This document shows positions 41,741 to 45,957 of a stretch of 45,957 nt of DNA, in pieces (positions within the stretch are counted from its first letter, which is position 1; each line of letters opens with the position of its first letter). The notes under the pieces are model-generated. The model was not told the origin of the DNA and ran no database searches. It was given only the letters and a program-made list of their open reading frames with translations. The stretch covers positions 1 through 45,957 of the forward strand of contig JAKATW010000141.1 in the NCBI GenBank assembly GCA_021827945.1, read 5' to 3'. Both the position numbers and the translations under genes were made by a program. Source of the DNA: Thermoplasmata archaeon. GTDB taxonomy: Archaea > Thermoplasmatota > Thermoplasmata > Thermoplasmatales > GCA-001856825.

Positions 41741-41757
41741 GGTGCGTTAAGCGATTT

Positions 41758-41829
41758 GGGCTGGTAGATCAGTGGAAGATCGCCTCCTTGGCATGGAGGA
41801 GGCCCGGGGTTCAAATCCCCGCCAGTCCA
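41758..41829 (+). tRNA. tRNA-Ala (GGC)
   Basis: Acceptor GGGCTGG/CCAGTCC, D-stem GATC/GATC, anticodon stem CCTCC-TTGGCAT-GGAGG (anticodon GGC), T-stem CGGGG-TTCAAAT-CCCCG. Confidence 0.95.
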
Positions 41830-42704
41830 TTGACAATGTCGTAGGATTTGGGGGATTTGAACATTTTATCCTCTTTGAATAGTTTCGGGTTTTGGTCGTG
41901 CATTCGTCTTATGGCCTCTGCTGAGTCCAGTTTTGTATAGATGGCTGTTGTATCGAGTCTCTCGTGGCCTAGCATTTGACTGATGGTTTGAAGGTCCATG
42001 TTTTCCATGACCAGTTTAACGGCATATGTGTGACGGCATCTATGCCACTTGAAGCCTTTAACTCCTGTTCTCTCCCGGATCCTCTTGGAAAGGTTCTCCA
42101 TGTAAGACGAGGTTATCTTTCCCTTCCTGGTTGTAAATACGTAATTCAAGTTCTGGTGATTCCTTAAGGGTAGCCATTTTCTTATGCTCTCAAATGTGAA
42201 GGAATCAAGGTAAACATCCCTATTCTCCTCGCCTTTCCCCCTCTCAACTGTCAAATAGTTCTCATGAATATCCTTGACTTTCAAGTTGGCGATCTCGCTT
42301 GCCCTCAATCCTGTGTTGAGTGCAAGGATAATCATCGTATGGTCCCTGTTGTCTTCCAGGGTTTCACCTTTCGATCTTTCAAGTAATAGCTTTACCTCAT
42401 TGGCATCGTACCTATTTATGGTGAATTTCTTTTTTGTTCCTGGAATATACTCAAAAGTATCCCATCCCCTGAATAGTATCCACCTGTTAAGGTACTTAAT
42501 ATATCCGTTGATCTTCTGCTTAGTGGCCCCCATTCTTCTCGCTTCCTTAAGAAACTCGTGGACACTCTCTCTATTTTCCAAGTCTATGGATTTGGAAAAG
42601 AAACGGATCTTCCTAACAGCATCTTCAATGGTTGAAGCAGAGAAGTTACGTCCATACATCCAGTCCTCGAATTCAATCAATTTATTCTCAATATTTTCGT
42701 TCAT
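41811..42704 (-). CDS. int: Tyrosine recombinase/integrase (XerC/D-like)
   Basis: GLRASEIANLKV (R), HRCRHTYAVKL (HxxR), LGHERLDTTAIYTKLD (H...Y); stop codon lies inside the tRNA T-arm. Confidence 0.93.
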   Translation of the reverse strand: MNENIENKLIEFEDWMYGRNFSASTIEDAVRKIRFFSKSIDLENRESVHEFLKEARRMGATKQKINGYIKYLNRWILFRGWDTFEYIPGTKKKFTINRYDANEVKLLLERSKGETLEDNRDHTMIILALNTGLRASEIANLKVKDIHENYLTVERGKGEENRDVYLDSFTFESIRKWLPLRNHQNLNYVFTTRKGKITSSYMENLSKRIRERTGVKGFKWHRCRHTYAVKLVMENMDLQTISQMLGHERLDTTAIYTKLDSAEAIRRMHDQNPKLFKEDKMFKSPKSYDIVNGLAGI

Positions 42705-42853
42705 AACTTAAATCCCCCATTCGTATCCAAATCAACCAAAGTCGTAATGCACAATCTGACGGCATGAGATCGATTTGCTGCTTTTCCCCTTTTAACGAGA
42801 TCATCTAGGAAGGAATTCTGTTCATCCGCTATAGAGATACTAATTTTTATCAT
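42701..42853 (-). CDS. Ribbon-helix-helix (CopG-like) DNA-binding protein
   Basis: MIKISISIADEQNSFLDDLVKRGKAANRSHAVRLCITTLVDL; 4-bp overlap with int start; ORF track start 42889 is upstream. Confidence 0.75.
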   Translation of the reverse strand: MIKISISIADEQNSFLDDLVKRGKAANRSHAVRLCITTLVDLDTNGGFKL

Positions 42854-42969
42854 ACTACTTTCACCTACTTTAGTATACACTACTGGCATAAATAACTTCC
42901 TACTTTTCCTTACTTATACTTACTTTTAAGCAGAAAGACGCTTAAACCAATATTTCTTCCTCCTCCGTA
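42854..42969. promoter_or_regulatory. Divergent RHH promoter/operator region with repeated TACTT motifs
   Basis: TACTT at 42856, 42866, 42901, 42911, 42917 and 42921, several 10 bp apart. Confidence 0.5.
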
Positions 42970-43146
42970 ATGAAAATTAAAGTGTCTGTTTCGATTGATG
43001 AGGAGCTTTTAGAATGGGTTGAAGTGGAGGTAGATAAGAAAAGGTTTGCCTCTGTTTCACACGCTGTGAACTTTGCGTTGAATGGTTTAAAAAAAGAATC
43101 CGGTCTGGGTGGCGTCAAGCGGCAGACGAAAGAGAAAGATAAGTAA
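42970..43146 (+). CDS. Ribbon-helix-helix protein, first gene of the GHKL cassette
   Basis: Not in the supplied track (58 aa). My translation: MKIKVSVSIDEELLEWVEVEVDKKRFASVSHAVNFALNGLKKESGLGGVKRQTKEKDK*. Confidence 0.75.
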   Translation: MKIKVSVSIDEELLEWVEVEVDKKRFASVSHAVNFALNGLKKESGLGGVKRQTKEKDK

Positions 43147-43147
43147 T

Positions 43148-43339
43148 ATGACTTCTCAAAATAAGTGTTTCTTGATCTCTCCTGCTGGAGAAAAGAGTTC
43201 AGCAACTAGAAATAGATTAGACGATCTCATGAATTACACCACAAGGCCCGTGATGGAAGGACTCGAAATTAAACTGGAAAGAGCCAGTAAACTGGCGGAG
43301 AGGGGGAAGAAGGAAGGTCGGTTAAGTGACTCAAATTAA
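43148..43339 (+). CDS. Short protein resembling the N-terminus of TIR-like/nucleoside 2-deoxyribosyltransferase-like domains
   Basis: MTSQNKCFLISPAGEKSSATRNRLDDLMNYTTRPVMEGLEIKLERASKLAERG..., similar to CFVISPIG-x(n)-IRxRxDxxxxYxIxPALExxGYEVxRAD; ATG at 43148, 1 nt after the RHH stop. Confidence 0.5.
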   Translation: MTSQNKCFLISPAGEKSSATRNRLDDLMNYTTRPVMEGLEIKLERASKLAERGKKEGRLSDSN

Positions 43340-44090
43340 AATCGGAAATCAAATCAGCGAACTCAGCTGCCTCAATTCTAAAGTAGACAAATATGCTTGT
43401 TATGAAGTTACAAACGGCAACATTGACTTTGAGTATATTGACCTTGTCTGTGACTCGCAACATTTTGCAAGATTCAGCGTCGAAAAGACAGGAAGTGACG
43501 GAGATATTACCCTAAAAGTAGGGCAGGAACAGAAAGTCCTTTCGATCTTCGTGGACAATTATAGGGCGACCGTATTGTCATTTCGTTCGTTAGATCAAGA
43601 ACAGTTTTGGCAATTTATCGGATTTGTTTCTATTAAGCATGCATATGGTGCTGCTACAGCGATCAGAGTATTGATTGAAGATTTTTTGAAATTAAATTAC
43701 TTATCGCCAGGTATTATCAAATATCTAGGAAAGAGAAATTTAAAGAAACTATATATGAAGGTGGAAAAGGACAAGACTGATCTTGCTTCAGAAGCAGTTA
43801 TGATGATAACTGTTAAGAATCTGTTTTTAACACTGATGGGTATAGATCCAAAAAGTAATGGATTAAGGGGTCACATAAACGATACCTTAAAGAAATTTTA
43901 CAGGAGTAGAGCAACGAAAAATCGACGGTTTAAGAAAGAACAATGGGAGAAGCTTAAACTTGTCTACGACACGTCTTCGAAAATTATTCATGGTCAGCAA
44001 TACGATGCATATCAACTTTTTAATGAAGTTAATGGAATTTTTGAGATTTTTAAAGAGTATTCAGAGAAAGAAGGGAAGTGGACCCAATGA
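43326..44090 (+). CDS. Uncharacterised 254-aa protein of the GHKL cassette
   Basis: GTG start overlapping upstream gene by 14 nt; no family recognised; C-terminal half helical with SSKIIHG. Confidence 0.8.
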   Translation: MTQIKIGNQISELSCLNSKVDKYACYEVTNGNIDFEYIDLVCDSQHFARFSVEKTGSDGDITLKVGQEQKVLSIFVDNYRATVLSFRSLDQEQFWQFIGFVSIKHAYGAATAIRVLIEDFLKLNYLSPGIIKYLGKRNLKKLYMKVEKDKTDLASEAVMMITVKNLFLTLMGIDPKSNGLRGHINDTLKKFYRSRATKNRRFKKEQWEKLKLVYDTSSKIIHGQQYDAYQLFNEVNGIFEIFKEYSEKEGKWTQ

Positions 44091-45892
44091 GTGATAAAGA
44101 ATCTGAAGAAGTTCTTCTGGATTCAATCTCGCTACAGGTAGCAGCTCAAGTTATAAAGCACATCTCTGCAGGACTCTATAGGAGCCCGGGCAGCTCCATA
44201 AAGGAACTAATTAGCAACTCCTTTGACGCGTGTGCAACAGAAGTGAATGTAGATTTCTATCTCGGAACATTTAAGTCTACTCAGTTTGAATTCGAGAAAA
44301 TTGTTATTAGAGATAATGGGGCTGGAATGACCCTCGACACTCTCTACGAAGTTTTTACTCACATTGGCAGTAGTGGAAAAGATAAGCCTTCGACATCAGA
44401 AAACCCAGATTGCAAATTGAGGCCGATCATTGGTAGAATGGGAATTGGTATGCTTTCTGTTGCATCTGCATGTACTGGATTCGTCGTTAGAACCAAGAAA
44501 AGAGGCGAACAAAAAGAGTATACAGCTAAGATATCGTTGTCATTTTTCAAAGATAGAATACAGAGATCAGAATCTATGGACAAATCTAAGTTAGGTAATG
44601 TTGAGCTTTATTCCAGAGATGTGAACAATGACGAAAGCTATACAGAAATAGAGATAAGTGAATTCACTCCTCCTTTTCTTGAGAACATAGTGCCCACTCT
44701 TAGCACTTCTTACTTATATAACTACATAAGAGGGAAAGAAAGCTACGAAGAATACTTTGAGCTCTTTGTATATAACGTTCAACAGCAAGGAAAGCTCGCA
44801 AACGTGGCAGTGATTGATAAGTTGATTGCAGATGTTGGCACCATGGCTCCGGTTGAATATTTACCAGACGGACCAGTAAGAAAAATCATAAAACTAAACG
44901 GAAAAGAGTATCAAATACCAGGGACGGACACAAAGGAGTACGATCAATTACGTAATAAACCAAAATCATTCAATTTTAATGTCATTGCTAATATCTACGT
45001 CAAAGGTCTTGACGGTAGATCAAGGCTAAGGAATTCTTTCAAAATATACAAACCGTTCATTTATCCCGTATTAGAAGATGTGACAGATTCGGTCGATTTC
45101 GAAGACCTTGATCCATATGTTTATTTACTTCCACCAAGAGATGACAAGGTCCTAAACGATGACGGTGTTTATGAAGAAACTTCAGTTAGAGGTTACTACT
45201 ACCACCAAAATAAGAGAATTCAACCAAGCGAATTTAGCGGGCTTCTGTATCGAGTATTCAACGTAGCGCTAGGCAATGAATTTGGAGACCCGATGAAGTT
45301 CTTTGTCGACGCCTATTTGGTATTTCAGCAATCGTTTGTTGAAGTTTACTTGGACAAAGGATTTCAACAAATCGTCAACCTGGATCGAGAAGGCCTGTTT
45401 GAAGGCAGTAACATGTACAGATACTTGCGAAACTACCTTGTTAACACAATCAGAGGGGACGCTCCACCAAAACCTGCCCCGTCAAAGCCCGAAACTTCAA
45501 AGGAGGAACAGGAAAAGCAATTTCAACAAGACCAAAATCAAACCTTTAAAGATAACAAAAGAGACGCGATAGTTCCAAAAGTGAAAAGAAGAAGGAGCAA
45601 TACAAGAAAAGCCAAGATAGAAAAGAGAAGTGAGCAGGTTGAACAGCGGCTACTTGATGATTTCGGTGCCCAAATTTTGACCAAGGAAAGAACCGATGAG
45701 GTTAAGGAAATGAGGGTAGAAATTGAAGGAGATGAGTTAATCGCTTATATTCCAAAATTCCAAAAGAGGAAAGAGCTTTGGGACCTTTTATGCATAGGCG
45801 TCATAGCGAATACGAGAGACGACAATAAAATAAAGGAAAAACTTGTAAAATTTATACTTGACCTATATGAAGAAGTAGAAGTTGGGAAGTGA
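44087..45892 (+). CDS. GHKL (HSP90/MORC/MutL-type) ATPase
   Basis: SSIKELISNSFDACATEVNV (N box), IVIRDNGAGMT (G1 DxGxG), IIGRMGIGMLSVASACTGF (G2 GxxGxG); 4-bp ATGA overlap with upstream gene. Confidence 0.88.
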   Translation: MSDKESEEVLLDSISLQVAAQVIKHISAGLYRSPGSSIKELISNSFDACATEVNVDFYLGTFKSTQFEFEKIVIRDNGAGMTLDTLYEVFTHIGSSGKDKPSTSENPDCKLRPIIGRMGIGMLSVASACTGFVVRTKKRGEQKEYTAKISLSFFKDRIQRSESMDKSKLGNVELYSRDVNNDESYTEIEISEFTPPFLENIVPTLSTSYLYNYIRGKESYEEYFELFVYNVQQQGKLANVAVIDKLIADVGTMAPVEYLPDGPVRKIIKLNGKEYQIPGTDTKEYDQLRNKPKSFNFNVIANIYVKGLDGRSRLRNSFKIYKPFIYPVLEDVTDSVDFEDLDPYVYLLPPRDDKVLNDDGVYEETSVRGYYYHQNKRIQPSEFSGLLYRVFNVALGNEFGDPMKFFVDAYLVFQQSFVEVYLDKGFQQIVNLDREGLFEGSNMYRYLRNYLVNTIRGDAPPKPAPSKPETSKEEQEKQFQQDQNQTFKDNKRDAIVPKVKRRRSNTRKAKIEKRSEQVEQRLLDDFGAQILTKERTDEVKEMRVEIEGDELIAYIPKFQKRKELWDLLCIGVIANTRDDNKIKEKLVKFILDLYEEVEVGK

Positions 45893-45957
45893 GGTACTAC
45901 ATTATTCACATTGATAATTTAGAGTAAAGTTTGTGTTTGTCAGCAATATTCCTCATA

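Follow-up and report, generated by a model that had tools for sequence, protein, structure and literature searches.

The last two genes of the window (the whole stretch of DNA analysed, 45,957 nt) form a conserved core, a rare archaeal pair of a 254-aa partner protein and a GHKL ATPase, which occurs in five further loci and there faces a convergent gene of the Dnd type. This core is likely to be a defence module of some sort. The reading favoured here, to which we assign a probability of about one half, is a modification-linked defence in which a sulfur-adding enzyme would take the place of the methyltransferase of paraMORC restriction-modification (R-M) systems and the ATPase would act on unmarked DNA, as suggested by sequence comparison and by analogy with published systems.

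The window is the whole of contig C161 (1-45957) of a metagenome-assembled genome (MAG) of 161 contigs and 87% completeness, and it ends 65 nt past the ATPase stop codon. The first-pass annotation had described four genes here, and all of them were found on the plus strand with the coordinates and spacing claimed: an RHH protein (42970-43146), a 63-aa ORF (43148-43339), the 254-aa partner (43326-44090) and the ATPase (44087-45892), separated by a gap of 1 nt and then by overlaps of 14 and 4 nt. From the ATG at 44087 the ATPase is 601 aa long, the length of 604 aa belonging to a form that starts from an upstream GTG at 44078. The proposal that the four genes make up one cassette found no support. 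The RHH protein, a probable local regulator with a ParD-like match under the cut-off (E 0.02), has no counterpart in the related loci, and its position in L014 and L015 is occupied by wHTH-like ORFs (annotated by eye). The 63-aa ORF, which carries CFLISPAG and is probably a remnant, has no family match, reaches a best tblastn E of 0.7 and is missing from the related loci; its proposed role as a TIR/deoxyribosyltransferase-like adaptor was abandoned, being unsupported by family search or tblastn. Because neither gene recurs in the related loci, both are local and lie outside the conserved core.

The element was correctly recognised as integrated at a tRNA gene, since a XerA-like tyrosine integrase (41811-42704, minus strand; Phage_integrase, 1.7e-29) covers the final 20 bases of a tRNA-Ala(GGC) gene (41757-41830, plus strand; ARAGORN), which is the integration site. 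A second RHH-like protein (42701-42889, minus strand; CdrS/NikR-like at E 0.009-0.04, under the cut-off) overlaps the integrase start. The contents of this site vary across the genus: in one genome (L077) the cargo differs and comes with a homologous 300-aa integrase, elsewhere there are different short inserts or no integrase, and none was seen in the remaining five genomes examined; the site is therefore an integration hotspot in the genus. No attR was found, and the sole other copy in the MAG of the att-like 21-mer, on C38, was rejected as attR, belonging to a different tRNA-Ala gene.

The ATPase retains intact ATP-binding boxes, as had been noted from the sequence alone, namely the N box KELISNSFDA, G1 DNGAGM and G2 GRMGIG, and it matches HATPase_c_3 at 3.8e-15. 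Its AF2 model, built with 18 sequences (pLDDT 75, pTM 0.75), retrieves MutL, Hsp90, SMCHD1, MORC2 and TopoVI-B in Foldseek with E values of up to 1e-11, and aligns over the GHKL and S5 regions to MutL LN40 (TMt 0.56), SMCHD1, MORC2 and Hsp90. The protein had been thought to lack the rest of HSP90 or MutL; in the model, an S5/transducer region is present, followed past about residue 456 by a basic linker modelled at low confidence and then by a small domain at the C-terminus. As judged from sequence and predicted structure, the ATPase has a full GHKL+S5 module of paraMORC type. In neither the ATPase nor its partner was a nuclease recognised.

One scan with a profile across 85,462 species genomes yielded 18 loci, to which genome searches added contig C110 of the same genome and G424, and among these the pair was seen in L014, L015, L016, C110 and G424, with ATPase identities of 23-44% across loci. 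It had been set beforehand that the proposal would be refuted if the 254-aa protein and the GHKL ATPase were not conserved together elsewhere, or if they matched a known non-defence module or a named defence system. The proposal passed this test: the pair is conserved outside this locus, and the searched libraries contain no named system that it matches. With a profile HMM built from the six members themselves, each of them scores at least 690 bits (C110, 712) and the next protein 323, the gap below the six being the informative part; a truncated copy of the C110 ATPase in L034 reaches 559. An upstream partner of this type accompanies all six family members and none of the other scanned GHKL proteins, several of which lie instead with a DNA methyltransferase and a downstream protein of about 330 aa (methyltransferase labels partly by eye), as in the published paraMORC R-M setting (PMC2292703). 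In the tree the window ATPase groups with that of L014 (100/99) and then with L015 (100/100), C110 groups with G424 (100/100), and L016 joins weakly (80/64), support for monophyly of all six being insufficient; the single ParaMORC3 placed in the tree falls outside the group of the window ATPase.

The known set thus amounts to six loci, most of them from incomplete MAGs. Viral contigs contained no GHKL relative, whether searched with a single sequence or a profile, and no exact match to the window end, the only hit being one distant PAPS reductase; phage and plasmid records gave matches to the generic GHKL domain only, at 21-28% coverage. The L016 ATPase had no match in plasmids, and 300 genomes of the phylum of L016 held no additional member. 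As for its surroundings, the pair is accompanied by defence genes at those loci whose context can be read: L014 adjoins genes for a D12 methyltransferase and for type I specificity, and L015 a SIR2-domain gene, which at these two loci is consistent with defence islands.

Other GHKL proteins of the same genome occur in different company. At two related loci, on C36 (L010) and C55 (L011), a GHKL ATPase of 559 and 564 aa, respectively, is found with a C5-methyltransferase and a Vsr-like gene; these proteins group with ParaMORC3, in another part of the tree than the window ATPase, and C36 also encodes a 199-aa protein with the motif RNNLFHGG, HEPN-like by eye and with no Pfam match. The C5-methyltransferase loci on C39 (L012) and C29 (L013) encode long GHKL proteins (681 and 742 aa) together with what looks by eye like a receiver-type partner, an arrangement reminiscent of two-component-like R-M elements (PMC8011034). 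In the genus, a small membrane protein whose end is SHOCT-like (DPRRxFWxGL...EILRERYAKGEISKEEYDKMREDL) is found repeatedly close to defence genes (L002:226-615, L010:4710-5087 and L079:2539-2922).

The Dnd-type gene is adjacent to and convergent with the ATPase gene in all five loci with sequence past the ATPase, on the opposite strand to the pair and outside its operon. The DndC-like sulfurtransferase has 339 aa in L014 and 377 aa in G424, with a 4-nt overlap with the ATPase gene in both, and 337 aa in L015; on C110, 76 aa of it precede the contig end and are 53% identical to the L014 protein. The complete short proteins match DndC at 1e-42 to 1e-53 and retain both SGGKDS and five cysteines that they have in common. 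Against TIGR03183 the short proteins of the related loci score 146-182 bits, below the cut-off of 290.4, and the DndC of L016 scores 567. Such genes are rare: among 392 genomes from the phylum, 7 have one at E<=1e-25. DndD and DndE were undetected in four genomes with a short DndC-like protein (G000, G091, G424 and G445, all incomplete MAGs) and are present in G446, the genome of L016. Since the short proteins fall below the DndC cut-off and DndD and DndE were undetected, DNA modification by them is only putative.

In the window, the contig end probably truncates the third gene; neither that end nor this conserved third component figured in the first-pass annotation. Just 65 nt of contig follow the ATPase stop codon, and the final 18 of them, read on the minus strand (45940-45957), give YEEYC*, which would represent the last five codons and stop of a convergent DndC-like gene, by comparison with the C-termini RSGRYEEYQ* of C110 and RSSRYEGY* of L015; the C-terminal pattern occurs at one of the window's 91,878 frame positions and, having been picked after seeing the homologues, lends support short of proof. 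A search of the genome for the remainder of the gene returned the C110 copy only.

L016 differs in having a complete dndCDEA next to a pbeABC-like operon: the genes before the pair, on the same strand, are PbeA- and PbeC-like, and the pair faces dndA-E-D-C. In the available sequence, the PbeA HKD-helicase and the PbeC ABC ATPase are not beside the pair in the window, L014, L015 or C110, and were seen in L016 only. After PbeC, where PbeD would be expected, L016 encodes a 323-aa protein (L016:6338-7309; PADLOC candidate PDC-M34B); PbeD was rejected as its identity, as it carries a HEPN_Swt1 domain and has no blastp similarity to Halorubrum PbeD. DndC proteins were also met elsewhere. In L046 (G204:C24:1-20000) genes for DndC (375 aa), a 64-aa protein, and DndD-like and DndE-like proteins lie near a divergent GHKL ATPase (536 aa), a second and separate instance of a GHKL protein beside DndC. 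L047 (G028) and L048 (G068), from the same archaeal order, share a conserved four-gene cluster with no GHKL gene, which encodes a DndC-like protein (413-419 aa), a 392-403-aa protein, a P-loop ATPase (516-531 aa) and a 640-aa protein, and is possibly an undescribed sulfurtransferase-linked system. On a Deinococcus plasmid (L082:4470-8104), phage-like cargo holds a cytosine methyltransferase gene and, immediately after it, a gene of the PAPS-reductase family.

A marking and ATP-gated clamp model can be outlined on the basis of the literature on paraMORC R-M, VcSduA, HEPN-paraMORC fusions and PbeABCD. The DndC-like protein, as an ATP-dependent sulfurtransferase, would mark host DNA with sulfur supplied by a cysteine desulfurase. 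The GHKL ATPase, by analogy with MORC, MutL and Hsp90 and their substrates, would dimerise around DNA upon ATP binding, with the DUF4145-like partner, translationally coupled to it, acting as a DNA-contacting adaptor or effector. On unmarked incoming DNA the complex of ATPase and adaptor would close, and replication would be blocked or cleavage triggered, so that the module would distinguish self from non-self and have an antiviral effect. The most specific form, a minimal sulfur self-marking immunity in which a short DndC-like enzyme works without DndD and DndE while the GHKL clamp and its adaptor read the mark and stop unmarked viral DNA, is put forward tentatively. The same genes could be read otherwise: the ATPase and its partner may replace DndD and DndE, so that all three genes would modify DNA, with any restriction encoded elsewhere. 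The failure to detect DndD and DndE in G000, G091, G424 and the genome of L014, all with a short DndC-like protein, agrees with this, and a GHKL clamp could conceivably substitute for the ABC ATPase DndD. In L016, however, the pair occurs together with complete dndC, D, E and A, and its strand is that of the pbe-like genes; moreover, the DndC-like protein, 76% identical between L014 and L015, has diverged much more slowly than the ATPase and the partner. This alternative is considered unlikely.

The partner, an ORF of 185-279 aa, precedes the ATPase gene in all six loci, overlapping it in five and lying 1 nt apart in L015. The compact partners of C110, L016 and G424 can be aligned to DUF4145 proteins of plasmids (hhalign 95.9%, E 6e-9, 0/100 column shuffles), and all six together match DUF4145 at a probability of 75.6 (E 2.4e-5, 0/100 shuffles). 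The long partners of the window, L014 and L015 reach only 0.7% on their own, with 1/100 shuffles higher; compared with the compact ones they give E 0.0035 (0/100 shuffles) over a 16-column match at the equivalent place. The Pfam gathering score for DUF4145 (PF13643), 23.1 bits, was not reached, with no match for the window partner, 15.5 bits for L016 and 12.1 for L002. The AF2 model of the 254-aa protein has a pLDDT of 56 and no Foldseek match at E<=0.001. The family appears to be a highly divergent relative of zinc-ribbon/DUF4145 proteins of the HEPN superfamily, with a clear match for the compact orthologues; the window copy, with a beta-rich N-terminus and a helical C-terminus, may be called DUF4145-like, without proven membership, on account of its position and weak profile similarity.

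This likeness bears on abortive infection as an explanation, in which the ATPase would sense infection and free the HEPN-like partner as a growth-stopping RNase, the DndC-like protein providing the immunity mark or being a neighbour with an independent role. DUF4145 belongs to the HEPN families, and fusions of Ymh-type HEPN domains to paraMORC ATPases are known (PMC3710099); modification-based immunity and suicide genes often come coupled (PMC3506569), and the histidine at the HEPN position is kept. The arginine of the Rx4-6H catalytic motif, however, is missing in five of the six members, L014 alone having it, at H-7; the window partner keeps H222 and has D in place of R. Abortive infection through such an RNase is judged slightly less probable than the replacement of DndD and DndE. 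Least probable is that the pair serves another modification or DNA-repair process and that the DndC-like gene hitchhikes in defence islands, as its opposite strand and the PAPS-reductase-like genes in other cargo (e.g. L047, L048 and L082) might suggest, given its presence in 5/5 loci, with convergent stops overlapping by 4 nt in two, next to ATPases only 23-44% identical.

If modification-linked defence is the correct reading, it would join paraMORC ATPases, known from methylation-based R-M, with DNA sulfur modification, so far separate fields; it would show if DndC-type enzymes are able to function in the absence of DndD and DndE, a direct biochemical test of the requirements of that step, and would add a kind of defence from Thermoplasmata archaea. 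The window also illustrates that a contig end can conceal the decisive gene of a system.

Among known systems, the paraMORCs were placed in R-M systems by Iyer, Abhiman and Aravind in 2008, who proposed DNA looping (PMC2292703). These share with the present loci the GHKL and S5 domains, a mobile and sporadic distribution and a position adjoining a DNA-modification gene, whereas here the partner is DUF4145-like, a DndC-like gene replaces the methyltransferase, and the short loci have no helicase or recognised nuclease. VcSduA, a paraMORC3 with a Shedu nuclease, is anti-phage and requires its ATPase glutamate (PMC12137116); it shares the N-terminal GHKL ATPase but has its own DUF4263 nuclease, of a kind not recognised in the window ATPase, and no DndC-like gene. 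The BbrUII/HgiDII-type restriction proteins (NF050001) share the GHKL domain at 9e-21, but the window ATPase scores only 74 bits against a cut-off of 550, limited to residues 16-193. The HEPN/DUF4145 proteins (PMC3710099) have in common with the compact partners a zinc-ribbon/beta N-terminus and a helical domain, whereas here the catalytic arginine is mostly lost and the window-type partner is very diverged. The phosphorothioation (PT) defence DndCDEA-PbeABCD (PMC6459918), re-described as a CxC ABC-ATPase system (PMC10853773), shares the DndC-type sulfurtransferase, and in L016 the pair adjoins dndCDEA and a pbe-like locus; PbeA, however, is an HKD/SF2 helicase, PbeC an ABC ATPase and there is no GHKL protein, while the short loci have no detectable DndD or DndE. 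PbeABCD was reported to stop viral replication in a PT-dependent manner with no visible DNA cleavage (PMC6459918), and others have argued that it cleaves DNA (PMC10853773), in a paper that leaves GHKL, MORC and HSP90 unmentioned. In the open-access literature, no paper was found in which DndC or DUF4145 is linked to GHKL, or phosphorothioation to paraMORC, in this arrangement. ParaMORC R-M and Dnd systems are thus each known, and the pair of a GHKL ATPase and a DUF4145-like protein facing a DndC-like gene is probably new relative to the arrangements described in open-access papers.
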